From positions 1 through 46,596 of the forward strand of contig NW_026516427.1 in assembly GCF_025602895.1 (NCBI RefSeq): a stretch of 46,596 nt of DNA, read 5' to 3'. Source of the stretch: Polychytrium aggregatum. Its lineage: Eukaryota; Chytridiomycota; Chytridiomycetes; Polychytriales. This document shows, in pieces, positions 7,347 to 42,600 of this stretch. Within the stretch, counting starts at the first letter, position 1, and every line of letters starts with the position of its first letter. The notes under the pieces are model-generated. The model had not been told where the DNA came from. It was given only the letters and a program-made list of their open reading frames with translations, and did not search any database. The translations under genes were made by a program, and so were the position numbers.

Positions 7347-9689
7347 TCACTGGTCGAGCGTGGCCAGAAAGCCCTGCACCCTGGCCCGCAGCGACGGGCG
7401 GCCATCGTCCCCGATGCCATCGGGGTTATTGCAGGTCTCCAACAGCATCGCTGCCGCCGCTGCTTCGGCCGTTCGGCCCTCCAGGATGCCGCCGGGCACC
7501 ACGGCCTCCATCAAGCATCCCGCAATCGCCGCTATCACGATCGGGCACACGGCGTTGCCAAGATGGTGGTATGCCCGGCTTCCGTTGCCGCAGGATCGGT
7601 ACCGCGATGCATCGATGATAAAGCTTTCTGGGAATCCTTGCAGCCGGGCGACTTCCCGAGGAGTAAAGAACCGAGGCGGATCGGTCGTCTCACCCGTGAC
7701 AGTAGCCTCGGGGTCAGGCATCCCGTTCTTCATCGGCACAAACTCCGAATAGAGCCCGAACCCCGTCCGGTAGTTGGATATCACTGTCCGAGCCGAGCCA
7801 TCCAGGTGCACCAGTCGCCGAGCCGGGTCCTCCTGGAAGCTGGCCAGGCTGCGGATCTTGCTCCACTGCGAGGTGGTCAGGACATATGGAAGCGTTGTGG
7901 CCGAGTCGAGCTCCAGGATATCTCGCACTCGCCGGTCAAATCCTCCCACGGTTGAGAGCCGGCCTTGGCGTGGAGTTACTTCAGGCATTCTCGGCCACCG
8001 GAACCGCTGCTGGGCTTGGACGAGGTCGCTTCGGATGCCGGCAAAGTAGACTCGCTGGCGCTGCTGCGGGACCCACGATCGGGCATCCACAACCCGCCAG
8101 TCGACCCAGTACCCCTCGAGCCGCAGCTTTTGGAGGACAATCGCCAGCGTCTCGCCGCCGTCGTGCTGAATGAGGTGCGCCACGTTCTCGAGCAGAAATG
8201 CCTTGGGCTGTCTTGCCCGCAGGACTCGGATGATCTCAAAGAACAGGTTGCCGCGGTCTTCTCGAAATCCCTGGAGCTTACCGGCTTTGGAGAACGGCTG
8301 GCAGGGAAAGCCGGCCGTCAACAGGTCGTGCTCGGGAACGACGTGGGCGTCCCACTCGGTAACGTCGCCTATGCCGAGCGGCAGTCCCTCGTACTGCTCC
8401 GCAACGGCCCCGGTGGGTTCGGGAAGGACAGTGGGGCCGTGGTTGGCATGATAGGCATCGAGTGCGGTCGAGTCCATTTCCGACATGAGCACACATCGGC
8501 CGCCCAGGTAGTCTAGAGCCAGGCGAAACCCACCGACACCAGCAAATAGCTCGACAAAGGTGAATTTGGGAGCGGCGGCAGTTTCCTGAGCCGATGAATC
8601 GCCCAGAGCAGCTTGGCTGTGATGGCGTAGGTCGACGGCGGTATTGATATCGGAGGTGTCGACGACGGTGCCGATCTTGGGCAAGATGTCGATCGTATCG
8701 ATTTGCTCGGTCGCATTGTCGATGGCTGCGGCATTCGTTGGTCTGCTCGAGCTTGCTGATCGGCTGGAGCTGGCCGAGTTGGATCGACTTCGTCCCCGGG
8801 GCGGCTCTGGCAGCGGCGAGCGATAGTTGGCCACGATGTGATATCGATCTTCCTCTCGCAGGGGAGGGCACTGGATCGACCGCGAACGGAGACCGGCGAT
8901 CCAGACAGCCCGCTTGGCCGAGAGCAGCCTCAAGATCTCGGCAATCGAGCTGCCACTGTCGGACTGCAGCTTGGCTCGTTTGGACGGGCGATCGTCAGCT
9001 GCAGGGTTACAGCCAGCGCCAGTGGCCTGGGTCTCGGCATCGTTCGGAGTGCTGGCCTGCGACACCGATTTTGCATGCTCACAGCAGTTGGATGGCGTCG
9101 CTGTGTCGGTCTGCTCTGCTTGGTCCAAGGTATTCAGATAGAGCGCCGCAGAGTGCGAGAGATGGATGGCCATGAGCTGCTCCTGTCCCGTTTCAAACCC
9201 GACGAGCTGCCCGGTCCATTCCTGCCTCTGGACGGGAGACGGCAGGAACAGTGTCGGCTTGATCCAGCCGCCCTTGATCCAGCTGCTGGCTCGGAGATGC
9301 GGGTAGATATCCTGGGCCCGGGCCTGCGGAATGACGATGGCACCGACATGGTACTGGTCCAGCACAGCAGGCAGGACCCGATCGAAGACGGTCGAGGCGA
9401 TCGTTGTGGAAGTGCTTGGGTCTCCCGCCGACCCTGGGTACGATGGCGACGACAGGCGGCGCATGACGGACAGGGAAAAGAACAAATTCAGTGGAGTAGA
9501 CGAAGCTGGATCGATGAAGCAACGGACGAGGGTCGGCTCGGTGCGAGGTGGTCCAGGGGCAATCTCGTCGAGACGATTCGGCGATGGTCCGAGTGGGTCA
9601 GATCGGGGCAAAGTCGGCCGAAATCGCGTTGCGGCGAACAACAGCAGATTCTGCCCGATCCATATTCTCCCGATCAGAGAGGCGGCCAT
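7347..9689 (-). CDS. Bacterial-type DNA (cytosine-5) methyltransferase
   Basis: This is one uninterrupted 780-codon frame. From about residue 373 it shows the ordered C5-MTase motifs: I FVELFAGVGGFRLAL (AdoMet binding), IV GFPCQPFSKAGK (catalytic Cys, about residue 460), VI ENV (about 501), VIII QRQRVYFAGIR (about 543), IX FTPREVARLQGFPESF and X HHLGNAV (about 710). A target-recognition region lies between VIII and IX. The wording of motifs IV, VIII and IX matches bacterial Dcm/HpaII-type enzymes rather than fungal DIM-2, RID or DNMT5 proteins. About 370 N-terminal residues, with a Ser/Arg/Asn-rich linker, match nothing I recognise. The start is uncertain: Met76 at 9464 is an alternative. No restriction endonuclease is adjacent. 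It presumably transfers methyl groups to cytosine in DNA; target sequence and compartment are unknown. Absence of introns in an intron-rich region fits horizontal acquisition (inference). Confidence 0.88.
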   Translation of the reverse strand: MAASLIGRIWIGQNLLLFAATRFRPTLPRSDPLGPSPNRLDEIAPGPPRTEPTLVRCFIDPASSTPLNLFFSLSVMRRLSSPSYPGSAGDPSTSTTIASTVFDRVLPAVLDQYHVGAIVIPQARAQDIYPHLRASSWIKGGWIKPTLFLPSPVQRQEWTGQLVGFETGQEQLMAIHLSHSAALYLNTLDQAEQTDTATPSNCCEHAKSVSQASTPNDAETQATGAGCNPAADDRPSKRAKLQSDSGSSIAEILRLLSAKRAVWIAGLRSRSIQCPPLREEDRYHIVANYRSPLPEPPRGRSRSNSASSSRSASSSRPTNAAAIDNATEQIDTIDILPKIGTVVDTSDINTAVDLRHHSQAALGDSSAQETAAAPKFTFVELFAGVGGFRLALDYLGGRCVLMSEMDSTALDAYHANHGPTVLPEPTGAVAEQYEGLPLGIGDVTEWDAHVVPEHDLLTAGFPCQPFSKAGKLQGFREDRGNLFFEIIRVLRARQPKAFLLENVAHLIQHDGGETLAIVLQKLRLEGYWVDWRVVDARSWVPQQRQRVYFAGIRSDLVQAQQRFRWPRMPEVTPRQGRLSTVGGFDRRVRDILELDSATTLPYVLTTSQWSKIRSLASFQEDPARRLVHLDGSARTVISNYRTGFGLYSEFVPMKNGMPDPEATVTGETTDPPRFFTPREVARLQGFPESFIIDASRYRSCGNGSRAYHHLGNAVCPIVIAAIAGCLMEAVVPGGILEGRTAEAAAAAMLLETCNNPDGIGDDGRPSLRARVQGFLATLDQ

Positions 9690-10212
9690 CCGCCCGTCAA
9701 CCTACAAGCAGTCAGCGGCCAGGGTGCGATCCAATCGGCCGTTGAGGTGGACCTCTGTCGGGAACTGGTCGCTCGAATCAGTCGCTGGGGTACTGGCGGC
9801 CTCGCCAGCACGAGCCCTCCAGACAGCCACCGAGCCAGTCCGGGGTGCATTCCAAGCCTGCACACTCGCCCGGATGCCTGGGACAGCAGATGCCGCAGCA
9901 GAGTGTCGGCGAACATGTCTTGAAGCCGGCGTGGGCAGAACCGGGCGCCGGGATTCAGATCGAGAGGAGGTACATCAGGCGTCGGTGGTGAAGGCCGCTT
10001 GTCTGTCGCCCGGAGCGATTGCGGAGGTTGTCGGGGCGGCTGTGGAGGTAACCGAGGCAGCCAGCTCGGCCAGCCTGTTAGTGTAAGTGACCTTATCGGA
10101 CGTAGGCTGCCACAGACTACATGTTCGATTGGAATGGACGGATCTCGGTTGCCTCTTCATATTGCACGGGCATGGGGTTTCTTTTGGAGGCCTTGGGTTT
10201 GTGGCGCGCATC
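9690..10212. other. Gap between the methyltransferase gene and the Fanzor element
   Basis: This is the upstream region of the methyltransferase. Short minus-strand open frames (9674-9916 with an Arg/Leu-rich start; 9975-10211) could be unrecognised 5' exons, but no motif or splice chain supports them, so they are not called. Confidence 0.45.
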
Positions 10213-10214
10213 TA

Positions 10215-10240
10215 CACTTTATTCAGAAAAAAACGGGACA
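10215..10240. repeat. Terminal inverted repeat of the Fanzor element, Fanzor side
   Basis: A 26-bp repeat preceded by TA. Its inner 13 bases (10228-10240) are an exact inverted match to 13843-13855, and the outer 13 match at six positions. The Fanzor transcript would read through it into flanking DNA. Confidence 0.82.
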
Positions 10241-10312
10241 ATATAGCCGTTTCCATGAACAGGTAGTATGTGCTGTGCTTGCGTCAAGCAAAGCCACAAG
10301 AAATAAAACCGA
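10215..10312 (-). ncRNA. Candidate Fanzor guide-RNA (fRNA) scaffold region with hairpin
   Basis: This is the 98-base stretch from the Fanzor stop codon to the element end. It contains a 23-nt hairpin at 10272-10294: GCT, one mismatch, then TGCTTG pairing with CAAGCA across a CGT loop, then AGC. In TnpB and Fanzor systems the guide RNA derives from the 3' end of the nuclease gene and the adjoining element end, with the guide copied from the flank. Position and structure fit that model. Transcription and processing are inference; the hairpin could also be a 3'-end or terminator-like structure. Confidence 0.5.
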
Positions 10313-12751
10313 TCACTTTGGCAGCCTCCGAGTGAAGACCGCCGGTCGCTCTCCGGTCTCCACAATCGACCTGCATACTGTGATCATGTTGCGCGCCGCA
10401 TTGACGTCGCGATTCCACACTGCCCGGCAGCTGGGATTCTTGCAGCTCCTGACAAAGTGGGAATTCGCAACACTGGGCGCATCGAGTCCTTCCAACCGAA
10501 CTGGCTCCAGGCACTTGGAGCACACTTGCGAGGTGTTGAACTCGTTCGTCGAGGCCACCTTGACGCTTCCATGATGGTGATTGGGACGGCGTCGGTGGTG
10601 CTCGAACTGCTCAAAGTACCGAGCAAACCGCTGCCTCCAAGGGCTGGATGCATAGCCCTTGCCTTGACGCCATGATGCATTGCCAAAGGCGATCACCACA
10701 TCGGTCCGTATCGGGGCGTGCTTCAGGACGGCCTTGCACATCTTGTCGACGGCCACTTGGCGCCTCTTGTGGCCCGTGAATCGATGGTGACGGGCCTTCT
10801 TGCCAAGGTGGAAGTCGAGCTGCACTCGCAGCTCCGGTCGCAGGACATGGGTGAGATGGACCTTGAAAGCCTCTGAGGACGACACCTTGGGCGAGGGGGT
10901 GGTCGACATCCAGGTCTCGATGCTGAGTCGATACTTCATGGTGTTGTGCCAGTCGGTGTTGGACTTGTGGCCACACATGTGCTGGTAGTGGCCATTGGAG
11001 AACGAGACCACCTCGTCTTGGTGGCCCGGTGCTTGGATGACCGCCGTGAAGATGGAGCCGACTCCAGGATCGATGCCAATCCAAGTGGTCTTGTCGGGGT
11101 CTGGGTTGCCGATGTGGGCCTGGATACGCTGCTCGGCAGTCGGAGGAGGCTCGATGGTCTCGGTGCGATCGGTTCGAGGCACAAACTTGACGAGACCGAT
11201 GGTGCATCCAATGCCATCGGTGCTGATCTCGTAGTTGAACAGCTTCTTGTTCACGTCCCGTTCTTGGAAGAGGGAACTACGCAGCTTGAAGCAACTGCGC
11301 CAGAGACGATCCTGGTTGTTGACACCGTCCTCACCTTCTTCCTTGAGCATGTCCCGGGTGAGTCCAAGGCGCTTCTTTGGACCCAGGAGTTCCCAGAGAG
11401 TGACGGTGTCGATCTTGACATACTTGGCCTTGGCTGTGCACAGAGGGACCATCGTGCACACGGACGGAGGAGTGTCGAGAGCGAGCTGCTTGAGGGCCCA
11501 GTTGATCCTGGCGGCCAGCTTGTTGATCTTGGCCTTGGTGGTGCCGAGCTCAGACTTGGCCGTGGTGAACCTCTTGTCGTCGGAGGGAATGCCTTGGGCA
11601 GTGAGCTTGTCCAGCTTGGTCTGGCGCTGCAACTCGGTGACTCGGAGGGCGGGCATGTCACAGTCGATCCACTTGTGGACATTGTCGACCATCTTGTCTC
11701 GGGCGAGGATTCTCACATGGTGTGAGAGGCGATGAAGGGCCCGGAAGCGGTCCTGGTCGCTGCTGTACCGAAACTCGTCCAGGACGTGGCCAAAGTCCGG
11801 GTAGAGGAACTCGAGATCGGCCTTGGGTGGAGTCTGCCCTGGTTTCTCGAAGAGCTCGAGACAGGCCTCGATGGCTTCGTGCTTATGCTTGTTGGCTGGG
11901 AAGACGGCAGCACAGAAGCGGCGAAGGAGTCGCCAGTAGGCCAGGTCGAGGTGGGTGGTGCAGTTGGTAGCATAGGCATTGACAGCCAGTGTGAGAAGCT
12001 GACTGTGAGCACCATCAGGCAGACGAGGGGCCGGAGGCAGGTCTGCGTGCCGAGTGGTCTGGTAGTCGCGAAAGGAAGCGACCAGATGCTCGTTGTACTG
12101 CTCGATATCCCCGGTCGGGGAGAGGGCATCGGCCTCGACAATCGTGAAGCACTGGCGAACGAAAGCAGGGGTGGACTTGGAGATGACGGGGACGGGAAGA
12201 TCCTGCTCGATGCACCGGAGGATGTGCAGGTTGAGCAGCCTGGATGCCTCGAACTGGATCTGGGTCATGGCCTCGACGGTGGCCTGGATCTTGTCGCGGA
12301 GAGCGGGATTGAGACAACAGCCATCCATCGTCTGCTTGAAGCAGCTGAACTGAGGGGCGGATGACCTTCCATCCACGAGTGGGACGACAGAACTCTTGAG
12401 GGGCCGGTATTTGGGACACCTGTTGGTGTTGCAACGTTCGTGATCGGTGCCATCGCACTGGCGACATCGCTTGCCGGTACTCGAGGAAGTAGATGGACCA
12501 GGCTCGGTGGGATCGACATCCATTGGATCTGCAGAAGCAGTGGTGGTGAGCGACGGAGCAACAGAGAAACAAGCATGCGTGGGATCAGAATACGAACCAG
12601 AGACAGGCTCCGACTGTGACTTGGCTTTCTTGGGCCTGGGTGGCCGAGGCTGGCCATCACCGGTACCCTTACGCTTCGGAGGCATGGGGGCAGAGGATGG
12701 TGAATGCCTGCCAGTGGTACTGGTCAGAGCAGAGACTTTTTTATCGTACAA
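10313..12751 (-). CDS. Fanzor protein (eukaryotic TnpB homologue, RNA-guided DNA endonuclease family)
   Basis: One uninterrupted 812-codon frame; Met23 (12685) directly before PPKRKGTG is an alternative start. Residues 23-46 form a basic, probably bipartite nuclear signal (PPKRK...PPRPKKAK). A Cys/His knuckle follows at about 92-110 (CRQCDGTDHERCNTNRC). The central helical region has no motif I recognise. The C-terminal third is a split RuvC nuclease: IGIDPG with Asp561, a Glu737 in STNEFNTSQVC, and Asp782 in WNRDVNAARN. A zinc ribbon is inserted between (Cys744, Cys747, Cys770, Cys775). The usual RuvC-II Glu position reads VIAFGNASW without acid, and the Glu sits just before the zinc ribbon. 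That matches the rearranged active site described for Fanzors. Characterised Fanzors, including one from the chytrid Spizellomyces, cut DNA guided by an RNA encoded at the gene's 3' end. All key residues are present, so it is likely active. Confidence 0.93.
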   Translation of the reverse strand: MYDKKVSALTSTTGRHSPSSAPMPPKRKGTGDGQPRPPRPKKAKSQSEPVSGSYSDPTHACFSVAPSLTTTASADPMDVDPTEPGPSTSSSTGKRCRQCDGTDHERCNTNRCPKYRPLKSSVVPLVDGRSSAPQFSCFKQTMDGCCLNPALRDKIQATVEAMTQIQFEASRLLNLHILRCIEQDLPVPVISKSTPAFVRQCFTIVEADALSPTGDIEQYNEHLVASFRDYQTTRHADLPPAPRLPDGAHSQLLTLAVNAYATNCTTHLDLAYWRLLRRFCAAVFPANKHKHEAIEACLELFEKPGQTPPKADLEFLYPDFGHVLDEFRYSSDQDRFRALHRLSHHVRILARDKMVDNVHKWIDCDMPALRVTELQRQTKLDKLTAQGIPSDDKRFTTAKSELGTTKAKINKLAARINWALKQLALDTPPSVCTMVPLCTAKAKYVKIDTVTLWELLGPKKRLGLTRDMLKEEGEDGVNNQDRLWRSCFKLRSSLFQERDVNKKLFNYEISTDGIGCTIGLVKFVPRTDRTETIEPPPTAEQRIQAHIGNPDPDKTTWIGIDPGVGSIFTAVIQAPGHQDEVVSFSNGHYQHMCGHKSNTDWHNTMKYRLSIETWMSTTPSPKVSSSEAFKVHLTHVLRPELRVQLDFHLGKKARHHRFTGHKRRQVAVDKMCKAVLKHAPIRTDVVIAFGNASWRQGKGYASSPWRQRFARYFEQFEHHRRRPNHHHGSVKVASTNEFNTSQVCSKCLEPVRLEGLDAPSVANSHFVRSCKNPSCRAVWNRDVNAARNMITVCRSIVETGERPAVFTRRLPK

Positions 12752-12950
12752 TGGCGCGATGATCAGATCAAGGCGAGATGAGGGAAGAAAGCAGCAGGAC
12801 GAAGGTGTGGCATTTATACCCGAGAGCAGGAGCCTGTTGGTGCGGACTGGTTGGGGAAGTGACCCTGTTCAAAAATCGCCGAGAGGTTCAAGACAGGGAT
12901 GTGAGCGTGAAAATGGCGGTGTGATCGGGGTGGCTCGACCCAGGATTGGA

Positions 12951-13014
12951 GGGACTCAACCCCAAATCGGTGGGGACTCAACCCCAAATCGGTGGTGACT
13001 CAACCCCAAAGAAG
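12951..13014. repeat. 22-bp tandem repeat at the transposase/Fanzor junction
   Basis: Two exact copies of a 22-mer (12951-12972 and 12973-12994) whose core is GACTCAACCCCAAA, plus a third partial copy (12995-13012). The third copy is the transposase coding sequence itself (the ENFFGV region). The repeat marks where the transposase loses its normal 3' end. Confidence 0.85.
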
Positions 13015-13784
13015 TTCTCGATGGGATTGAAGTCGGGCGATGCAGGTGGGGTGAAGATCACTGACCATCCTCGGCGCTCGATGCAGTCCAGGACAGCCAT
13101 TGTCTTGTGCATGCTGACATTGTCCATCACAATCACAGAGTCGTCTGGGAAGGTCGCTCGCTCAAAGAACTCGACCATCGAGTGTGTCTTGAATGATGTG
13201 GGGATGTACATGCGATGCAGCACACCAGAGTGGTTGATGGCAAATGCAGCCGAGACAGACTTGTGTTTCATGTGATTGCGCTGGCGAAGCGGAGCACCCT
13301 TCGGTGAGTATCCGTAGAGAGGGAAAATGGATCTCCTGATCCCCGTCTAATCGACAAAAACGAATCGTCGTGGGTCGATGGAGCGGACCTGGTCCCTGAA
13401 CTGTGCCACTCGCTCATCCAGTCGCTTGGACTTGTAGAGGTGTGTTGCCCTCTTGTGTGAGAGACCTGCTCGGTGGATGGCAGTGTGGCAGAGTGAGAGT
13501 GATACTTTCCTCTGGAGGATGGACTCGAGCTTGCATCGCAACACAGGACCAGTCTGGAACGGGTCCTGTTCAATCAGGGTGCGAATGACTGGATATGCCT
13601 GCTCGAAGAAAGTGGATCTGCGAGCTGGGACCCGGGATGGGTCATCCAGCTTGCATCCTCGGTGCCATCGATGGATGGTGCTCTTGGATACACTGAATAT
13701 GGAGGCGACCTTACGCAGGCTATGGATGAGGGCGTAGCATCGCAATGCGGCGGTGCGAAAGTCGGATGTGTGGCGAATGGTCAT
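12978..13784 (-). pseudogene. Tc1/mariner/IS630-type transposase, nonsense-mutated and 3' truncated
   Basis: The minus-strand frame runs from Met at 13784. It starts with a helix-turn-helix domain (VASIFSVSKSTIHRWHRG) and a second HTH-like part (LCHTAIHRAGLSHKRA). The DDE fold follows: RRFVFVD, then TGIRRSIFPLYGYSPKGAPL, then VIVMDNVSMHK, then SPDFNPIENFFG. A TAG at 13347-13349 lies directly after the first catalytic Asp, exactly where the family has Glu ('FVDET'), and the frame continues unchanged after it. A single G-to-T change would explain it. After NPIENFFGV the protein stops within ten codons because the 22-bp tandem repeat replaces the end. The product should be inactive unless TAG is read through. 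It lies upstream of the Fanzor gene on the same strand. Confidence 0.88.
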
Positions 13785-13842
13785 GGCCAGCGCGCGATAA
13801 CATTGGGTAACAAAATATTCGATGAATGGTCAAAATCCCGGG

Positions 13843-13868
13843 TGTCCCGTTTTTTATTGGATTGCCTG
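13843..13868. repeat. Terminal inverted repeat of the Fanzor element, transposase side
   Basis: A 26-bp inverted partner of 10215-10240, followed by TA at 13869-13870. Read from outside it starts CAGGCAATCCAATAAAAAA, much like the repeat at 46546-46570. Confidence 0.83.
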
Positions 13869-14000
13869 TAATACCACGATCGGGCAGTGATCCTGCCCAG
13901 CACGAACATCCCACCCGTCGTCCATCATCTCTCCAGGCCCAGGATCCGACCGCTGCTGCTGCCGAATCGCCGAATCGCCGCGCTCGACCAAGAACACCCC

Positions 14001-25997: not shown

Positions 25998-27398
25998 CGA
26001 GGAGGGGGGGAACTGGGTCGAAAGGGACCTGAGCGACGAATGCTACTGTCTGAGGAGGTTCGCAAAGGGCTTGTGGGTGAGAAGCACATGGGAATGGCTG
26101 TTGGGATATAGCCAGATGCTGACCCTCGGGCAGCGAGTGAGTCGCCTGGGTGCTCAATACGCCGGCCACATCGGTCGAGTCGGGGTGGAGAGAATCTGGG
26201 TCGTCAGCAACCCTATCGTCTGGGCCGGGGTTGGCAGTTGTCCCAGGGCAGTCTGGGCTGCTGGCAACTCGTGCGAGGCGAGCAAGATTCGCAAGCTCAG
26301 CCCTCCTCTGGGTTGCCTTGGCCGTTTTGAGTTGATATAACTCAAACAAAAATGAATTTAACCCAACCAAACTCCGTGAGCAAATAGCGAGACCAATTTC
26401 CGACAGATTTACGGAGTTTGAGGTTCACATGAGAAAAATTGAAGAAGTTATTGGAGATGGGCCAAGGGCACAAACTGTCAACGTGTCAGTGCTAGGCTCC
26501 ATATTTCACATGAAAATCGTATGAATGATCATTCAATTGGCCTCGATTTTCAGTCCTCCTTACGTGGCTTGAAGCTTGTCATTAACAGAGGCAGAGGGCC
26601 ACTTCCTTGCCTCACACGACCTATCGCATAGTAGTGTCCTCCTATTTATGCACGAGCCCTCTTGACATTTGTTTTAGCCCCCTTTGTTCTTTCTTCCCTT
26701 GTCTCTGAAAGAGGGGACACGAATGTATTTGGTAAACTGAGGCTTGCACAGCTACTAAAATAGGACGTAATCTCTCTTCGACGGGCAAGCCCACAATCGA
26801 ATTATGCTTGAAACAAAGGAATAACACTGCCCCTGTCTCCGTGTCTGTCTCGTCACGGTCCCTTACGCCAGGCAAGCCCAGCCAGATTTAGTATTGGCTT
26901 CATTGGGGAGTCGCACATCCACTATGAAAAAAAAGCTGACGTGTAAATTACGCGTTGGCCAATACTTCCCTCGCAAATCCCCCACCGGACTCAGCATAAC
27001 AAGGAAAAACACGTCTTCTCGCGTTTTGTTTTGCCTTGGGGGTCGCGTCTGGCCACTGAAGCGACCGCGACGGGCTCGGGTCACCCGCATTTCTCCTTGT
27101 TCGTCCAGGTTGCTGGCTCCCTGGGTGTCCCCGAACCCGCACTGCCACATCCCGTGGAGCCCTCGGCCAATGGGCTGCTTCCGTTCACGTGACATGGCAT
27201 CCGAGTCATCCCGGCTTTTCACTGTCTTCCGCGACTCGTTCACTGTCCATGACCCCCGGCTGCTTTCCTGACTCATCTGTGTTCATGGGTCATCAGAGCC
27301 TTCGGACTTGGACAAAAACCGGGCATTTCCGCCCCCAGTTGCTTCGTCAATCTCCTCTTGATCCTTTCTCCCCTCGACCTTCTCATCCGACTCTAATC
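25998..27398. other. Transposon-flanking sequence without a firm gene
   Basis: A 150-codon minus-strand frame (26370-25918) overlaps the broken transposase N-terminus and may be part of the same element; I do not recognise it. A 10-bp inverted repeat, CAAACTCCGT at 26368-26377 and its complement at 26411-26420, encloses 33 bases. Sequence from about 26420 to 27398 is AT-richer than the housekeeping regions. Its end is probably the 5' region of the Tnp2-like gene. Confidence 0.45.
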
Positions 27399-30300
27399 AT
27401 GAGTTCAGCCGCTCAACCATCTGGGCACGATCACCCAAGGCATACTCCATATCCAATATCATCGACCAGGGTACCATCCTCGATAAATAGGGCTCACGAT
27501 GGGCTTCCCAAGAACAGATCCATCTGTCGTTGTCGCAAGTGTAGCACCGATTCGCAAGGCTTCAGGATTGTCTCCAGAACGACCTACTACGACCACTTCT
27601 ATCGCTATGGCTTTCCACCTGGAGTCCCCCCTGTTCACATGTACTCGCTCAAAGATCCTCAAGAAAACACACCTGGCCATCTTTCTTCGTTCCCTCACCG
27701 TCCTATTACAAGCATATGCGAAAATAACCCCAATTTGCGAACTTCGCCGACATTTCATCCCCCAGTGTTGGTGGTAGATGAACTGCGACCACATGGGATA
27801 ACATCGCAGCGACCTTCATTGGGTAAGACTGAGCACCTGATATCACATTCTCGCTAAATTTTTGTGTGCGTCACGGTTTCAGTCTTGAGCAATAATCAGT
27901 GATCTGTGCTTGGACGCTGCCAGAGCTCACTACGAAATGACCAATACACTCTCGATTTGTCCGACTTTGTTTCTTCATCCTTGGCCTGGCCCAAAGGCTC
28001 ACCCCGCGCATTTGAGCACGAGAGCATGGATATCCAAACAGGAGCATCTATTCAGCAATGCACCCAAGACAACGAAGGCCCTGCTCCAGCTCAATTTGAA
28101 CGCTGCCCTTCGTGGTCGCCAAGCATGTGGGCATCGCGGGACTCTGAAGAAGCGTCCATGTACTACGAAGACTCTGAAGACTCTTCGATAGACTCAGAAG
28201 ACACCACTTCAAGCTCACCGAGAGAATTCGATGACATTTCGGGTGAGATATCAACGTCACCCAGCCTGATCGTATCGTCGAATCTTCCTGGTCTTGCTTC
28301 AGAGTCCGGTTGACTCATATAAATGCCACGGTTCACCTTCCAGGACAGTATCCGGATAGCTTCCTCGGCCACTTTCGACTGCTTGAAATGAATGAAGATG
28401 ATGAAGAAACTGGTGACGAAGAGCCCCGCATATCAGATGGTGAGTCAAATTCAAAGGACAGATAGCAATCCGATGTAGCATCCGAATTGATGTATTCACC
28501 CGCGGCTTTCCCCCAGATATCCCGCCCTTCTATTCGCAGCTGGTCAAGGTGTTGACCGAGTGCAATGTTACCGACAAAGCCATCAAATCTGTCCTTAATC
28601 ATTGCAACAAATTCCAAGGATTGTCATTACCAGCTGCACCCAGTCTGTACAAGATCCAAAAGATCATTTGTTGCGAGTGGAACGAGTATCTTCAGAGGCT
28701 TCCCTGCTGCCCAAACAGCTGCATGGGATTCGACATCAATGATAACCAGAGTCGAATATGCACGTTTTGTGGAGAGGATGCTTATGCGACGGTGAACGAA
28801 AAACTTCTGAATGGCGGCATTCAACCACAACTGAGGCCGATTCAGACCTACAAGTATTTCGATTTTGTTCAGATACTTCAGACACTCTACCGAAATCCAA
28901 CTATGGCAGAGTTGATGATGTACAGAGCAAACAGAGCGAGCGAACCAGGTACTTTCCACCCGTATTATTTCCCAATACTATATTGCTATATGGTGCTCTG
29001 AACTCACCAAATCTGAATCTTCAGGCATCATGAACGACATATTCGATGCCGAATATTACCAGCACCTTTGTAGTCGCTCAATGTTCCAGCAGCCCACCGA
29101 CGTTGCTCTCGGGCTGCATTTTGATGTCTTCAATATCAATCAGAGGTACGCCCGCTCTCTGTTTCAAAATCAGATTATAACCACAGCTGACCTTTGTATC
29201 TGGTGTAGGCAAAGCCATCAATCGTGGGGCTTCATCTTGATCAACTTCAATCTTCCACCTGCTCTGCGCTACAAAAAGGAAAATCTCATTACGGTCTTGC
29301 TTACGCCTGGTCCACGATCGCCTCGTGACTTTGATACATTTTTGAAGCCGTTTTTCGAAGATATGAAGAGACTTGAGACCGGTGCGTAAGCCCCTCTGGT
29401 GTGGATCACTTGGTCACTCCACATAATCCTCGCGAGAGCACGCTGCTGACGGAGCAATGTCTCTCGCTCCCAGGTGTTGAGGCGATAAGGGTCGACAAAA
29501 ATGGCGTGGAACATTCTTTCACTCTCCGAGGTCACTTGCTGTACTGCCAGAGTGACATGCCCGGATCCAACAAATTCGGTAAATTTTCTGGGCACACCGC
29601 CACGAAGGGCTGTCGTCTCTGCGAAATAACGGCCACGAGGGCCGGGGGTGCCATGTGCTTCTATGAGCGTGACACTCCCAGTCCATACCGCACCGAAGAG
29701 AGTCTGAACAGAATATGGGAGGCCATCGATCAAGACGGCATGCCCCGAAACGGTACGTTAACGAGACGAGTCAGGGCGTTGTTTTCGACTCCGATGTTAA
29801 CATTAACTATGTTGATCAGGGATCGTGGGGCGACCAGGTGTAACTCAACTTGAGTCCATCGAGCTCAGCTTCTGTCTTCCTCTCGATCTGATGCATGTGA
29901 TCTCGAACATTGGTCCACTCATGATGGAGATTTGGAATGGAACGCGGAAGGCTCCCTCATCCTCAAGTTTGGACCAAAAGATCACGTCCAAGTGCCTGAA
30001 AAAGATCGGAAGATGGATCAGCGAAGGCAGGATTCAGATTCCAACAGGCTTTGGTGCCTCTTGTCGGGACCCTGTCTCATACAAAAGCTTCAAAACCGAA
30101 GAATGGAAGAATTGGATTATCATGTACTCCCTACCTCTGCTCAATGCGGCGGGCTTTCCACTAGAACACTTGTAAGCTCTTGATATTGTACCCTGCTCGA
30201 ACCGGGGCCCGTCCTACGGTCGATGAGATACTTGATTCGAATTGATCCTAACAGTGATGCTATTGTGCCTAGATTGGGATGGAGGCGCTTTGTCTATGCC

Positions 30301-31607
30301 CTTCGATTGATGCTGCTTCCCCAGTTGAATGTTGCTCAATGCAATCAGATCGAGAGAAATCTTCAGAGGTTCCAGGAGTACTACACAGAGCAAGTAGCAC
30401 GAGACAGCAGTCCCTTCACTTGAGGATGTTGGGCAGCTCACTAATTCTCAATATCTAACCACGTATACTCGAAATGTATTCACCAGGTCAATCGCAAATC
30501 TCCCAGAGTCACTCGAACCTCCTCCAGACAGAGCTCCAGACCTGTCTGGACTTCGTTTGATGAAAACCTACGTGCATCAGCTCCAACACTTGCCCAGGTG
30601 CATCCGATTGTTTGGACCCTTGGTATATCAATGGCAGTTTGAAATGGAAAGAACCTGTGGTCGCCTGAAGCTCATCGGGCGATCGAAGGTCCATCCAGTG
30701 GACAATATGGCCAATCGGCTCGTCCTCCAAAGCTCTTTGAGCGGTCCAAGCATTGCTCCGAACTTGACCTTGAGAGGAACATCCAGGTTGGGCGAAGACC
30801 CTGGGATATGGCCATCCTCCTTTGCAAACAATGGGCGGGCCTCGAATCAAGATAGCCGCGGAACCTTGTCTGGCCAGCAACAAAAGCTGAAACTACCTTC
30901 TGAACAAGTCGCGAAGCTAAAGAGCGCTTATGCCAGGACGATTTCTGCCAATTCCTCATACGGCTATCGTGAAGCCTTGCAATATGTCCATTCACTTTGG
31001 GATCAGAATTCGGACACTTGCTCCAAACACACCAAGATGGACGCGGGGGAACTACATGTCATATCTCAATCACATCGGATGAGCACGGCACATCATCGGA
31101 TGAACTCTGTTGTGAAGGTAAGGCATTCGGCAGCGCGCGATAGCGAAGCCTCATATGAGCTAATGCATTCTGAATCTACAGGTTTGGACCAATATGCCCG
31201 ATGCATCAGCAAGCAATCACCCATATTCTTCTGTCCGCTTCTATCAAGTCCAATATTTCATCAGCCACTCCTTTGATGGAGAAACAACAAACTGGGCATA
31301 CTGTGTGATTCCAAAGATCAACATCAGATATGGAGATGACAGTTCAGGATACCGCCCATGCAAAGAGTGTGCTACCTTTCACCTCGACAGCATGGAGTCA
31401 ACGAATCATATCTTTGTTCCAGCCGATGCCATCGTTTCTACTGTCGGATACTTCGAGATGGAAGGCGGTGGGTACAGCTTTGCTGCAATTGGAGAGTGGA
31501 TGGAGAGGCAAAGTCAGGCTGATACTCATACCAACTATTCCAGGTGGCTTTTATATTATCGAGCAAGATCCTCCGATTTGACAAGTCGATGCAAATGTCG
31601 CAGGTAG
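27399..31607 (+). CDS. CACTA/Tnp2-like transposase gene (multi-exon)
   Basis: A chain of about ten exons from ATG at 27399 to a stop at 31605-31607. The N-terminus has a Cys-rich motif (SICRCRKCSTDSQGF) and an acidic Ser/Asp/Glu region (about 28020-28430). Clear splices join the central exons in phase, for example ...ANRASEPG|GT to AG|IMNDIFDAEYYQHL, and FNINQR to QSHQSWGFILINFN. Tnp2 hallmarks follow: GHTATKGCRLCEI (zinc-type), LPLDLMHVISNIGPLMMEIW, WIIMYSLPLL, then FEMERTCGRLK and VHPVDNMANRL. A C-terminal VQYFISHSF...IFVPADAIVSTVGYFE closes it. Every junction I checked in 28549-30175 keeps frame, so the gene may be functional. Exon limits before 28400 and after 30175 are not resolved. Element ends were not found. 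Confidence 0.68.
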
Positions 31608-32774
31608 TTGGGCCAAAAAGTGCTTGAGGCTGCTTGATGACGAAGGGAGTTTGTCCGAACTTGACCCATAGTGACCATATCAGTGTAATGACAGGTCAAG
31701 TCGGAAGGTTTGGAATATAAATATCCCCCCGACCACCGCTTCCTGCCCGCTTCCGTCGTCAGGCTCAAGTCAATACTCCCCTCAGGCCCTCTCTATCCTA
31801 ACTTCCTCGACGGGCCCGTGAGCCGATCGATGACATAGGTGCCGTTAAACGCATGCATATTGAGGATGAGCCGCATCATGAATATGCCTCTAATGTTATT
31901 AACTTTAACGCTTCCTCTTTCACTATCTTGAATATATCTCGAATGCAGGAAGCCATCCAAATCCAAGTAAGCTCCTTCATGACGATTGAGCATCATCTGA
32001 GAGAACTCGAAGGCGACGCTTCAACTAACCGCATCGCTCATTCCCTCCAGATATCCTCGCCCCCATGGGACATTATCTTGATTATTATCATTTCGGGTTT
32101 GTTATCACTTGCGTTTTTACTGAACACGGCATATCATACCGCATTCTGTTTGCGACTCTGAGGTTAAACTGGCTGGTGGAGCAGTGACCACCGCGGGTTT
32201 GACCTAATCCTGGACTAGTTAGAACGGCCGAGGATTGCCCCAGGAGTTCACGGTGCCGCCCAACGGCGGTCGGAACTGGGGTGTCCGAAAGGCAGTTCTC
32301 AGAACGGGTCATGGTGAGGGAGAATGAGGATATGAGAGGTTCGGGGCCGGGAGAAACCGGGGCGGAGGGGTCCCGGAACGGAGCGGGACGGAGCGGGACG
32401 GCAAGCGAATGCCAAATCGGGCCAGAGCACGTGTGGGAAACAACGCTGTTGATTGGCTAGCGAGCAGTCCCAAAATGGCATCGTTCGGACGAGGCTGCAC
32501 CAGACTGTCGGCACACACGTGACTCATTCTGTGTCTTAATGTGCCTGCTGACCAGGTCCCGAGCCGAACACAGCCACTGTAGAGGGGTCACGTCCTATTT
32601 TTTTCATCGTGATCTGAAGAGCGCCACCTTTTTTACTCCGAGTGGCGTTGTTCAGGTACCTCCCTATGCTATATATTCCAGTTTTACCTCACCTGCTTCC
32701 TCTCCCTCGCTGTCACTCGTCCTTGGCCAGCACCCTCCCACGTTCCTCCTGTCCCTCTGCCTCCCACATTTGAT
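31608..32774. other. Upstream region of the Sel1 kinase / flank of the Tnp2-like element
   Basis: No coding sequence supported. It contains a duplicated GGAGCGGGAC unit (about 32375-32400) and the kinase promoter described separately. Confidence 0.5.
32670..32676 (+). promoter_or_regulatory. TATA-like element of the Sel1 kinase gene
   Basis: TATATAT lies 98 bp before the kinase ATG and is followed by a pyrimidine-rich stretch (about 32690-32770), a usual fungal promoter/leader layout. Confidence 0.45.
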
Positions 32775-34778
32775 ATGACCAGCAACGGCTCCATCCCTTT
32801 CACCAAACTCGCTGCCAGTGATTGGCAATCTTGGTTTATCCCGGCTGAAGCCATCACACACAAGGCCCAGAACCGCCTTGACGGTGGTGGTTTCGCTGAT
32901 GTATTTGCCGCCAGGCTTGGTAATATGGATGTTGCCGTCAAGCAACTCAGAATCCATTTGAATAACTACGGTATCGACGTTTTCGAGAGAGAAATTAGAG
33001 TCTGGCATCGCTTGAAACACGTAAACATCCTCCCTCTACTCGGTGCCTGTGATCGTGACGCCCAAGGCACCCCCATTCCTCCTTTTATGGTGTCACCCTT
33101 GATGGAAAACGGCTCCATGCTCGAATACATCAAGAAAAACCAGTGTTATCTCAATCAAAAGCTCTCCTTCCTTGCACAATCCGCAGCCGGCATGAACTAC
33201 CTCCATAGTGAAAGAATTATTCACGGAGACTTCAAAACCGCAAATGTCCTTCTAGATGGCCGACTGAACGCAGTCGTCGCCGACTTTGGAATGTCACGCA
33301 CAAAGCGCACATCTGCATCCGCTGTCTGGGTCAGGGCAAGCCCCTTTGAAGGTGGAACCCCGGGCTTCATTGCGCCAGAGATGCTTGATCCCAATGATCC
33401 AGCCGGCGCTTCCAAGAAGACTGATGTCTATGCCTTCGCCATCACCATGTACGAAGTACTGAACGACGGCAAAGAGATATGGGTTACACGAGATGGACAA
33501 ATCATGCAGATATTCCAAATTGGACTCATGGTCTGCAATGGAAGGCGCCCAAAACGCATCCCTGGAATCCCCGACGACGTCTGGGCCCTCATCGAACGCT
33601 GCTGGGCACACGATCCCGCCGATCGTCCCTCGTTCCCTGAGATTCTTGCCGTCCTCCAGCCATATAACCGTGTCTCCACCGCTGCCATCAAGTCCCCATC
33701 CGTCAGCCTGTTGGCCATCCATCTCAACGCACTCAGTCTGAAAAAGCCCCCGATCCAGTCCCAGCCCAGTCGTTCCGCCGAGCTCAAGTTTGATGACATC
33801 GAGTTGGTTTTCCACCTCCCTGACTCACTCGTCTCCCGCGCCAAGCAAGGCGATCCTGATGCTTGTCTCGAAGCCGCCAAGTTGGTATCGGAGGGGCTTC
33901 CTGCTCACCACCAAGATTGGAAGCCCGCCACACAACTCTACAAGGCCGCTGCCGACCGCGGTAAACTCGAAGCCTCCTTCCAGCTGGCCAGGCTTGCGTT
34001 CCTAGGCGAAGGAATGATGCAGAGCGATCGTAGTGCCTTTTGGTTCTGGCAGGAAGTCAGCACCAAGTCCACCGACGCTGTTCTCAAGCCCATCGCCACC
34101 CACATAGTCGGTTGGATGCATTACCTTGGACGAGGAACCCAGCTGGACAAACAAAAGGGCATCAAGATCATACGAGAAAACAGCACGAACGAGTTCAAGC
34201 TCGGAGAAGACGAGTGTCTAGCCGGTGGAACTGGATGTAGCTCCAATTCGCCCGCAGCCTGCAAGTTCTTCGATCTCTGCCAGCAGGGATCGGACCGAGA
34301 CTGGCTCTGCCGACATCTCATGGCCGTGTGTTTGTTTCTTGGATTTGGAACGACTCAGGACCGGAAGAAAGCAGTGAGCATATTTGAGCAACTCGCCAAC
34401 AAAGGCCATAGCGACAGCCGATTATGGATCGGAAGGTGCTTCATGGGTATCGAGGAAGTACCGGAAGATCTCAGGAAGGCATTCGAGTGGTTCTTCAAGT
34501 CGGCCACCGAAGGCAACCCGTACGGCCAGTGGATGGTCGGTGAATGCTTCTCCAATGGATGGGGGGTCACCAAGGACATCGCCAAGGCATTCGAGTGGTA
34601 TGGAAAGTCGGCTGAGAATGGCAATCGATCGGGACAATTCTATGTCGGCTGTTGTTATGGATTTGAGACTGGTGTCTCCAAAAACCTCGACACTGCTATC
34701 TTCTGGTACCGCAAGTCCGCTAAACAAGGTTACCAAGTTGCCATCAACAGTCTCAAATATCTCGGAAAGTGGCCCTGA
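32775..34778 (+). CDS. Tyrosine-kinase-like (TKL) protein kinase with C-terminal Sel1 repeats
   Basis: An intronless frame of 667 codons. The kinase domain spans about 35-295: Gly-rich loop LDGGGFADVFAARL, VAVKQL (Lys about 54), EREIRVWHRLKHVNILPLLG, catalytic loop IIHGDFKTANVLL (about 150) and ADFGMSR (about 168). GTPGFIAPEML and RCWAHDPADRPSFPEIL, typical of TKL kinases, follow. The catalytic loop has HGD in place of HRD, but the Asp, DFG and Lys are kept, so activity is likely. From about 350 to 660 come Sel1/TPR-like repeats, among them AFEWFFKSATEGNPYGQWMV and AFEWYGKSAENGNRSGQFYV, with A-(8)-G-(4)-A-(3)-LG spacing. Sel1 repeats act as protein-binding solenoids. Kinase-Sel1 fusions are multigene families in basal fungi; a broken relative lies at 23903-24019. 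Substrates are unknown. Confidence 0.92.
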   Translation: MTSNGSIPFTKLAASDWQSWFIPAEAITHKAQNRLDGGGFADVFAARLGNMDVAVKQLRIHLNNYGIDVFEREIRVWHRLKHVNILPLLGACDRDAQGTPIPPFMVSPLMENGSMLEYIKKNQCYLNQKLSFLAQSAAGMNYLHSERIIHGDFKTANVLLDGRLNAVVADFGMSRTKRTSASAVWVRASPFEGGTPGFIAPEMLDPNDPAGASKKTDVYAFAITMYEVLNDGKEIWVTRDGQIMQIFQIGLMVCNGRRPKRIPGIPDDVWALIERCWAHDPADRPSFPEILAVLQPYNRVSTAAIKSPSVSLLAIHLNALSLKKPPIQSQPSRSAELKFDDIELVFHLPDSLVSRAKQGDPDACLEAAKLVSEGLPAHHQDWKPATQLYKAAADRGKLEASFQLARLAFLGEGMMQSDRSAFWFWQEVSTKSTDAVLKPIATHIVGWMHYLGRGTQLDKQKGIKIIRENSTNEFKLGEDECLAGGTGCSSNSPAACKFFDLCQQGSDRDWLCRHLMAVCLFLGFGTTQDRKKAVSIFEQLANKGHSDSRLWIGRCFMGIEEVPEDLRKAFEWFFKSATEGNPYGQWMVGECFSNGWGVTKDIAKAFEWYGKSAENGNRSGQFYVGCCYGFETGVSKNLDTAIFWYRKSAKQGYQVAINSLKYLGKWP

Positions 34779-39149: not shown

Positions 39150-39602
39150 GGCGCTGATGCGGTGCCGGCACAGAAAGAGGAGGCGGAGGGAGGCTGGGGA
39201 CGGGTGCGCCTGCAGATAGGGGGGGGGCCGGTGCCGAGAGAGCGCTGCTGGGTCGGAAGCGGGATCAAGGACAGAGAGTCGACCAAGGCGAGCTTGGGCT
39301 GGCCCTGGTGGAAAGCGGCAGGGCAAAACCGGGACGGCGGGTTCGAGTGCGGCTGGAGCCAAGCGCTCCCGGGTTTGGCCGGCGCTGTCGCCCTGGACCC
39401 GCCACTCGTCCTGGAATCCGGCGGCCTTCCTGGGCGCAACTCCCCTCCTGGACTCATCTGCACCGGCGCGGATCTGCCCCTGCGTGCATCGGCCTGCGTC
39501 TCTGCCCTGCATTGAGCCGCGTCTGTGTGCATCGTCTCTAGCGGCATCCGCCTGCATCACCCGTGTTGTCTTTTGTCCCTCCCTTGCTGCCCGGCATCTG
39601 CC
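39150..39602. promoter_or_regulatory. Shared upstream region of VMA16 and the RhoGEF gene
   Basis: The 453 bp between two divergent start codons must hold both promoters. It is GC-rich, with no TATA box and a G8 run at about 39221-39228. An in-frame ATG at 39525 upstream of the chosen RhoGEF start is possible but sits in Cys/His-rich noncoding-like sequence. Confidence 0.5.
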
Positions 39603-42600
39603 ATGGAGCAGCCCTCGTCGCCCCCCGTCAAGCTCTCGGTCAGCCAGCTGGCTCAGCAGTTTGAGCAGTCCATCCGCCAAAATACCACCCAAGAAACCGA
39701 CCACGGCTCGGCTGTCTCGGAGGTGGAACATGCACCCAGCAAGCGGTTGTCCATCGTCAGGCTCGCCCGGCCCGAGTCTATTCTGGTGCGGCCTACACAT
39801 GGTCCGTCAATCTCGACTTTGGCTGCAACCACAGCCTCGTCGCCGGTTCTTGTCATTCCGCCATCACCGAGTCGACCCGAGTCGGCGCTATCCCTCAACA
39901 GGGCCTCGTCGACAGGCTCGCTACATATGCGATTCAGCATGCCTCCTCCCAGGCCCGCCAAGCCCCCGTCGCTGGCCGCCCCATCGCTGTTCACCGCCAA
40001 CGGCACTTCGCCCACCCCACGGAGCCCTTATTTGCCCGAAGAAGAGCGCCACACGTCCAATTCATCGCCCCTTCCTCAGTCCATCCCGCTCTCTCAGCGG
40101 ATAGCAGCCCTCAACGCAGCATCGCAGAGGCCGCTTTTTCCAAGCTCGAACCAAGTCCATCCGACGTCCTCCTCGGCACACGATGTGTACGCATATGCAC
40201 CGTCAAGCGTCGATCCGTGGGGCGATACCGAGTCTCAAAGAAGCTACACGGGCACTTACAATTCGTACGAGCGGCCTTCCAGCGTGCTGTCCAATTATTC
40301 GTCGTCAGGGGCGCTCCCGCCCAAACCTATCAAGAAGATAGCACCGCCGCCGCCACCTTCTCTGCGGTCCAAGCGGTCCTCGGTCCTTTCGCTTCCAAAG
40401 CGTCCGTCCATCTCTGGATTCTCCGAGGCTTCGTTGCATCAGGAACGGCATCAAGCAACGCCCACGGACCACTGGAGTCATCGCGTGGATCGGCTAGTCC
40501 TCGGCTCCGACAGCCCAGACTTGCCTGTCGAAGGGGCTGAGCGAACAGCGACGGCCTCGACAAGCTCGAACGTCTACACCGAGTCCGGGGGTGAAGATAA
40601 GGTGGAGCGGATGAAACGCAAGCGGAGCCAGATCGTGGCGGAGATTGTCGACACCGAGCGACAGTATCTGGACGATTTGCGGATTCTCCGCGAGGTGTTT
40701 GTCGTCCCGGCAATCGAAGCCAAGGCGCTGCCGCCCGGCGACATCAAGGTTCTGTTTGGCAACCTCGATGCAGTCATCGAGACGGCCGAGCTGGTTGTCT
40801 CGGCACTCGAGGACGCCATCGCCAAGTCCCCCGACCCGGAGGGCCAGCCCCTGGGCAGCACCTTTTTGTCGGTGCTCACTCCTATCGAGCGGGCATATTG
40901 TGAGTACTGCAAGCACAACGAGGCGTGCGTTGCCAAGCTCGGTGAGTACGTCTCGCCCGAGTGCCCCGAAGAAATCAAGGCATTTTTGAAAGAGCGCCAG
41001 GCGCAGCTCGTGGGCCGGACACTTGCCTGGGATCTGGCCTCGCTGGTGATCAAGCCGGTCCAGCGCGTGCTCAAATATCCGCTTCTACTGCGGGAGCTGA
41101 TCAAGGAGACTCAGTCCGCGCACCCAGACTATGCCACTCTGGTCGAGGTTCAGCTGCGGTTTGAGCGGATCGCAACCAACATCAACGAGGTCAAGAAGCG
41201 CAAGGACATTGTCGACAAGTACATCGAGAAGAAGGGCAACGTCAACGTCATTCATGGCATCAACAAGAAGTTTGTGCGCGGCACCGAGATGCTCAAGCAA
41301 AAGACCGGCCTCAGCGGCGACATCACGCTCGACTCCGACTACGATCGCATCTCGACGCAGTTCGGCGATAAGGCAACGCTTGTTGCAGTGCTCAAGCGCG
41401 ACATTGCCGCCTGGAACGATGCCGTCAGCAAGTACGTCAAGGCGCAAGAGTCTGTCTACCTGGGACTAGAGGATATCTACAAGATGAACCTCGATTCAGC
41501 CGATACGCGCGATCTTGCGCTCTATCCCAGCTTCCAGCTGCTGTTGGACTATCGTCGAGAAGCCACTCGGGTCAGCTCTGAGGTCATCCGCGATGCCGAA
41601 AAGCTGTCGGACCGGCTGGTGGACATGCTGGACCAGCTGTCTGCAGTCTTTAGGGAGCCGCTGCTGCTGATGAAGAAGCGGAACGAGAAATTGCTTGACT
41701 TTGACCGAGTGCGCGCCATTCGGGCCAAAGGCGAGACGGTGAGTCCAAGCGCCGCGTGCATGTTCGAGGCTTCATGTTCGAGCTCTTGCTGAGACGCGCG
41801 GCTATGAACGATCTACTTGGCCGGCTACGGATGGCGCCAGACGGCCGGCAGTTGGAATGGACTGGTGCAGATCCGAGTCTGTTGCCTTGGATCAAGGGCG
41901 AGGCTGTTTGGGACTGAGCTGTGGCCGACGATTATTCCGATGTCGGAGACATGGTGCATCTTGGTGTAGGGAGTAGCCCGTCGATGTCCGGCTTGAGCAA
42001 ACCCATTGCTGACATGGCTTCTATCTGCCCTGCACCACTGCCGAATCACCGATCGACACAACCACCGATCGACACAACCACCGATCGACAGCCGGACAGC
42101 TTTCTCGAGCAGTCTGCGGCAGAGTATCCGTCCATCAACGCCCAGCTGATAGAGGAGCTCCCGCTATTGACGCACCATGCGCAGAAATATGTCGGCCGAA
42201 TCTTTGATATGCTCATGGTCTCCCAGGCCCGGATCTATGTGCAGCTGACGGAGACCTTGGCTCCGATTTGGGAGAACGCGAGCGTAGGCACTGGAGCACA
42301 CTGGCGCAGCGACGATATTGTCCTTGAGTTCCAGGAGGCATTCCGCATTGGATGTGAGGCGGAGCAGCTGGCCTCCCAGATCGACTTGCTGAGCTCGTGG
42401 TGGAAGGTGACATGGCGTAAGTAACAACATGTGGGCTCGAATCGTGTCGAGTCGATCACCGCTAACCAAGTCGGATGTTCTCTTGACCAGCCGAGGACCG
42501 ACATCCGCTGGAGGGCCGACAGCTCGAAAGAACGGGATCAGTCCACGAAAGCCCGTTTTTGAAAAAGTCGCTGACGTCTGCTCGCGGTAGGTCGTGATCA

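Follow-up and report, generated by a model that had tools for sequence, protein, structure and literature searches.

What does an RNA-guided nuclease do for the transposon that carries it in a eukaryotic genome? According to a 2023 Nature paper (PMC10432273), it is unknown what part the nuclease activity of Fanzors plays in biology, and the question is raised anew by a locus of the chytrid Polychytrium aggregatum. Within the stretch of 46,596 nucleotides that we analysed (contig NW_026516427.1 from its first position; hereafter the window), positions 10213-13870 hold a single copy of a repeated IS630/mariner element with a Fanzor1-type gene. Our reading, to which we assign a probability of roughly 60%, is that this transposon inserts at TA and that its own RNA-guided nuclease keeps it at its addresses. 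Its insertions have a near-constant short sequence on one side only, which suggests a role of the cutter in retaining the element. All coordinates are window positions, and the Fanzor sense is the window minus strand, with the left end at 13870 and the right end at 10213 (Table 1).

We searched the genome assembly (64,678,306 bases in 418 contigs) for the element and its ends. A sequence-only reading of the locus had proposed 26-bp inverted repeats with a 13-bp core and TA on both sides, and homology in other copies stops there. The left end on the minus strand is TA-CAGGCAATCCAATAAAAAACGGGACA and the right end, as reverse complement, TA-CACTTTATTCAGAAAAAAACGGGACA; the two 26-bp repeats that follow TA agree at 19 of 26 positions, the inner 13 bp being identical. 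With both haplotypes included, the left end is matched exactly 214 times in the assembly and the right end 220 times with at most one mismatch, and the element occupies about 100 or more genomic places. When the whole element was used as query and the best 40 of 1283 candidates were scored, which makes the counts lower bounds, at least 22 alignments besides the window copy covered the query from position 1 or 2 through 3658 with 94-97% identity, the remaining rows being pieces or copies with internal indels. The inverted repeats are thus no chance pairing, because these further copies align across the whole element. With a 301-bp right-end query, all of the best 40 of 771 candidates were at least 98% identical. 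Homology reaches TA at both ends in 20 fetched copies and the window copy, and the flanks beyond TA are unlike except in two pairs that have both flanks in common (the window copy with L009, and L020 with L021). Both genes are enclosed by these ends wherever a full-length copy was examined, and their separate arrival, named beforehand as the outcome that would speak against a single element, is thus unsupported. Copy L013 lies inside a high-copy repeat, and here the anticipated empty sites were found: all eight other fetched copies of that repeat have one TA at the junction with no length difference, and in 8/8 a T stands ahead of it. TA was therefore duplicated on insertion, and the T already belonged to the target of L013 beforehand. 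The element shows the TA target duplication (at one locus) and the inverted repeats at both ends of IS630/Tc1-mariner elements. The repeat housing L013 terminates with CATAGTG; its complement, CACTATG, forms the end at window 26920.

In Tc1/mariner elements a single transposase joins both ends to a palindromic TA. A one-sided base preference is unexpected from such a symmetric transposase, because a palindromic TA should give mirror-image preferences. With the left-end pattern fixed, the base preceding its TA was T in 204 of the 214 matches across the assembly and another base in ten, while T precedes 582 of 4603 background TAs (12.6%; flanks and window, both strands). The ten exceptions represent seven loci once pairs with the same flank are merged, and one of these (L033) is the other haplotype of a T-type locus (L010), which leaves six loci that are non-T throughout. 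On the right side, the base following TA at 50 distinct loci was A 12, C 15, G 11 and T 12 (58 rows prior to merging; 3 of 40 fetched rows were dropped, their end being mutated or unrecognised). A genome-wide pattern of the right end plus its next base (at most one mismatch) had an exact A in 40 of 220 matches, and at least three more had A with a mismatch elsewhere. A is slightly over background in this position (12/50 versus 13.1%, p=0.03; p=0.08 for the whole distribution), an excess that is far from mirroring the T bias on the left. The next base outward on the left, position -2, is skewed as well: among 59 distinct T-type loci (40 of which came from the list of T matches and are uninformative on position -1) it was A 31, T 16, G 8 and C 4, against an expectation from genomic xTTA of 15.0, 14.2, 17.4 and 12.4 (p=3.5e-6), and A or T thus stands there in 47/59. 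No mirror-image T excess was found at the second base beyond the right end (T in 12/50 loci); G at the fifth base in 24/50 (p=0.004) is left uninterpreted, as ten positions were inspected.

The transposase might impose the one-sided T through its asymmetric inverted repeats, with the Fanzor having no part in site choice or retention. The repeats do differ outside their core, and the T was seen in a Fanzor-carrying family; against this, transposase preferences should be mirrored at the palindromic TA and the right side shows none, and in Spu-1, the SpuFz1 element of Spizellomyces punctatus, fixed bases in the same place are the target-adjacent motif (TAM) of the nuclease (PMC10432273). We consider this explanation unlikely. 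A TAM on the left side combined with a guide from the right side would predict a fixed left flank and a free right flank, as seen. Because of these two flanks and the parallel with the CATA of Spu-1, we predict 5'-WTTA as the TAM of this Fanzor; the forecast that defined ends would reveal such a motif worked, in that the left flanking base is constrained and the right one is not. The right flank, which differs between loci and has no bias at its first base, would be the guide. The right-end TA itself is predicted to belong to the RNA scaffold, by likeness to the right-flanking base of IS607, which is assigned to the scaffold (PMC10711439).

The likeness to Spu-1 extends to a Fanzor1 between inverted repeats, TA duplications, many copies and short 'ghost' copies retaining the right end (PMC10432273, PMC3627910), as well as fixed bases upstream of the left repeat. 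TAM bases in that place and ghosts are thus known from Spu-1, which has CA there and the TAM CATA (PMC10432273). The two systems differ in the motif (WTTA here), in the low full-length identity between SpuFz1 and the present Fanzor, and in the transposase, which lies inside the element here, whereas the 2023 authors found none within the Spu-1 repeats. The TAM reported for GtFz1 of Guillardia theta, 5'-TTAAN (PMC10432273), resembles our predicted motif, although the sequence match to the Fanzor is weak (E=0.11, profile); PMC11423790 gives the two TAMs in the opposite order to PMC10432273.

Short derivatives would fit the right end as the source of a putative guide RNA. Of 51 T-type left-end matches entered, 50 could be paired with a right end, at distances of more than 3300 bp (40), about 1.1 kb (4) or less than 400 bp (6). 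Derivatives L030, L032 and L035, which represent two loci, retain 99-103 bp of the left end and 208-216 bp of the right end, and L095 is alike. The candidate scaffold comprises 100 nt beyond the stop codon of the Fanzor and about 108 nt from inside its gene. Mean column identity over the final 130 nt of the right end is 96% (30 copies), and diversity falls from 0.04-0.05 over the first 100 nt, at the left end, to about 0.02 over the last 90 nt. These are indirect signs that a guide RNA may be produced and may direct cleavage.

The window Fanzor frame is open and complete, as expected from the sequence-only reading; the transposase that had been expected beside it is only a remnant. The Fanzor carries a TNB/zinc-ribbon domain (PF07282, 35.6 bits, cut-off 26.3) and shows the Fanzor1 constellation D-X(125,275)-[TS][TS]-X-X-[C4]-X(5,50)-RD (PMC3627910) with D539, T718-S719, the zinc-finger cysteines and R759-D760. 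The DPG and alternative glutamate described as a Fanzor signature (PMC10711439) are both present, DPG at 539 and E715 within NEFNTSQVC. Among solved structures ranked by profile SpuFz1 came first and GtFz1 second, both weakly and over the C-terminal part; for SpuFz1 the E value was 0.41 with the single sequence and 0.0015 with a three-sequence profile. TnpB models matched below cut-off, a protein homologue search gave no match at E <= 0.001, and an AlphaFold model was unusable (mean predicted local distance difference test score, pLDDT, 34.4). The 790-residue frame is kept in 15 of 24 copies. In a 19-copy comparison the ratio of non-synonymous to synonymous variation (pN/pS) was 0.31-0.32, with pS at 0.08-0.10, and the Fanzor coding sequence is under purifying selection. 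In the window copy the transposase frame 13347-13784 ends at a stop after 145 codons, and other sequence, with a 22-bp tandem repeat in it, stands in place of the 3' end of the gene. Both frames are readable in copy L050, with a transposase of 310 amino acids (DDE_3, 2.7e-23; NCBIfam IS630 NF033545, 121.9 bits, cut-off 100) and a Fanzor of 790. Transposase pN/pS was 0.225 over the part compared (19 copies).

We then compared the two haplotypes. Joined-flank searches for 19 loci recovered a second haplotype for 13, five loci being present once only and L013 being unscorable. The second haplotype was filled at 12 of the 13 (nine sequenced fully, one, L033, partly, and two judged by spacing only, namely C363 and, for L015, C246). 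The sole unfilled one (C10, for L024), as we read it, is missing a 17-bp stretch between short direct repeats and the TTA along with it; C10 may result from repair of a break, or the element may always have been absent from this haplotype. Eight sequenced full-length allelic pairs differ by 0.44, 0.83, 1.86, 2.94, 3.06, 4.19, 4.29 and 4.82%, while 343 non-allelic pairs differ by 4.16% on average (range 2.80-5.75). The flanks are nearly identical, with 6 differences in 3364 bp and 4 gap positions for the window copy and L009 (plus a further left-flank piece with a length difference), 3 in 3800 for L020/L021, and 0-1 in 140-199 bp for the other six pairs. Both variants also occur at other loci for 603 of 791 allelic differences. 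Allelic pairs nonetheless share 1-16 variants absent elsewhere among 27 copies (gaps counted), versus a median of 0, a 99% quantile of 4 and a maximum of 94 for non-allelic pairs; L026 and L096, whose elements are 4.8% apart, share six such variants in the first 50 positions. The simplest reading would be one insertion per address, with an interior rewritten from other copies. Rewriting appears to be fast, because some alleles are as unlike as non-allelic copies beside near-identical flanks. Alleles also differ by large indels, and at L012 one haplotype carries 3633 bp where the second carries a 312-bp derivative joined as in L030, L032 and L035.

Linkage between variants among copies drops to the shuffled level within 25-50 bp, and this decay persists when the comparison is restricted to transversions or to non-CpG sites, which speaks against recurrent CpG mutation as its cause. 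Polishing or read correction could have mixed variants between copies, making the internal haplotype differences an assembly artefact. The short reach of linkage would fit, and the analysis drew on assembled sequence; however, allelic identity is kept elsewhere (16 differences in 3635 sites for L020/L021, and 57 of 68 differences confined to 500-1250 for L027/L049), and large indels and the 312-bp derivative also separate alleles. We therefore hold an artefact to be very unlikely, and it would leave the one-sided T unaffected, because the T lies in flanking sequence. A more serious competitor is that these are old, fixed insertions, shuffled and homogenised by ordinary ectopic gene conversion, with the Fanzor idle or incidental. 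Such conversion explains filled haplotypes and patchy rewriting with no nuclease, but it leaves the one-sided T unexplained, the speed of rewriting in the three most divergent allelic pairs speaks against it, and the Fanzor pN/pS argues against an idle gene; it is possible, though in our view doubtful. Haplotypes can differ for insertions, because a 5692-bp insertion at window 26920-32611, which we take to be CACTA-like from its ends, is carried by the window haplotype but not by C79 (n=1). In a wider haplotype comparison, a single repeat accounted for all of the best 14 of 126 candidates. Nuclease-dependent restoration would fit the filled haplotypes and the internal rewriting, neither of which is specific to it.

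Retention by the element's own nuclease would build as follows on what is established, namely the ends with their duplicated TA, the copy number, the T on one side, the filling of second haplotypes, the rewriting of the interior and purifying selection. An RNA reading out of the right end would take its guide from the right flank, and each copy would name its own insertion site for that reason. Excision, or absence from the other chromosome, would expose an empty address, 5'-WTTA-guide, which the Fanzor would cut; the cut flanks would invade the filled chromosome, and synthesis would enter the element, possibly switching to dispersed copies, so that repair copies the element back. Insertions lacking T in the left flank would be unrestorable and tend to disappear, leaving the one-sided T. 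Repeated gap repair with template switching would rewrite the interior while address and ends persist, and incomplete synthesis would give deletions and short derivatives. Recurrent breakage and gap repair, with the Fanzor aiding retention, are likely, and cutting rather than excision alone would be the driving force. A more far-reaching version, offered tentatively, is natural RNA-guided homing in a eukaryotic nuclear genome, in which the Fanzor would cut every empty allele with WTTA and a guide match, and addresses would be fixed on both haplotypes with occupants rewritten from other copies; a point in its favour is that the only unfilled second haplotype, C10, is without the motif.

Several observations weigh against retention by the nuclease. 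Right-end folding was unremarkable (z -1.68 and -1.59) and no covariation was found in the right end; RNA and cutting alike are deduced from footprints. Six loci retain a non-T base, and the T bias was measured in one mariner family of this genome, a Fanzor-carrying one. Filled second haplotypes also fit insertions that are simply old, the insertion control being the one CACTA-like case, and ordinary ectopic conversion could rewrite elements with no Fanzor. Broken Fanzor frames persist in at least 9 of 24 copies, which would require action in trans.

The closest functional parallel is bacterial. TnpB of IS200/IS605 elements, a retention device and gene drive, is likewise a nuclease that RNA directs to empty insertion sites, so that element-carrying copies are favoured (PMC11870625); its retention pattern, a TAM in the left flank and a free right flank, is found here if the T before the left end is part of the predicted motif. 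The IS200/IS605 case has another transposase and was shown experimentally (PMC11870625), whereas the present one is eukaryotic and deduced from sequence. Fanzor1 genes paired with mariner transposases have already been described (PMC3627910); known elements with a Mariner-like transposase share the gene pair and TA duplications, but the best described examples are single-copy or viral, while here a large family can be read on two haplotypes. In titles and the beginnings of abstracts, most subscription papers being out of reach, no work was found on allelic rewriting inside fixed Fanzor insertions. With more than 200 readable ends, an internal transposase, short derivatives, sequence from two haplotypes and a motif that can be inferred, the role of a Fanzor becomes concretely testable, through the TAM predicted here, each copy's guide and what becomes of empty alleles. 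Addresses that stay fixed while their occupants are rewritten would be a footprint to seek in other Fanzor carriers.

Table 1. Parts of the Fanzor-carrying element and its flanks in the window
Feature	Positions	Strand	Basis
Left-end inverted repeat and TA (transposase side)	13843..13870	-	exact pattern, 214 assembly matches
Right-end inverted repeat and TA	10213..10240	-	220 assembly matches, at most one mismatch including next base
Left-end TA and two flanking bases, ATTA on minus strand; predicted TAM (WTTA)	13869..13872	-	T before TA 204/214; A/T at next base 47/59
Predicted guide of window copy, first 20 nt of right flank	10193..10212	-	inferred from Fanzor mechanism (PMC10432273)
Right-end part that short derivatives keep; putative guide-RNA scaffold	10213..10420	-	retained in L030, L032, L035, L095; low diversity
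Fanzor1-type protein, 790 amino acids	10313..12685	-	TNB domain E=1.1e-8; residues; SpuFz1 profile match E=0.0015
IS630/mariner-type transposase remnant, 145 codons then stop, DDE_3 stretch, C-terminal end lost	12978..13784	-	DDE_3 E=1.2e-18 for 12978-13346
22-bp tandem repeat, 2.7 copies, where L050 has the transposase 3' end	12951..13010	.	

Two pairs of loci show peculiar junctions. The left flanks of L024 and L010 have the same last 11 bases, GTGTCTTGTAT, before the element and are otherwise unrelated; these might mark flank copied along with the element. At L058 and L068 the right-end TA also belongs to a related inverted repeat, CAGCGTACCCAGAACGAAACGGGACA, so that a single TA serves two elements; a search with the sister repeat pattern gave 2 matches.

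The CACTA-like insertion has ends CACTATG/CATCGTG and a 3-bp ATC duplication, and is 98-100% identical to at least 14 places elsewhere (best 14 of 126 candidates). A related inverted repeat of another Fanzor-carrying family (TACAGTC...CGGGACA; 444 genome matches with at most three mismatches) lies at window 46544-46571 and at about 595-622 of L091. Several of these repeats sit 145-300 bp from a CACTA-like repeat end, an arrangement that would fit the capture of a Fanzor right end by a CACTA element. This family was unusable as a replicate, since only its Fanzor-side end was recognised. Two further Fanzor fragments, at about 787-1581 of the L013 left flank and at L091:98-487, are 46% and 65% identical to the window Fanzor. 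The element adjoins a C5 cytosine DNA methylase gene (window 7347-9689, minus strand; PF00145, E=2.3e-66), and farther along lie a kinase with Sel1 repeats (32775-34778) and a RhoGEF-BAR protein (39525-41792), a host gene content that might fit a fungus.

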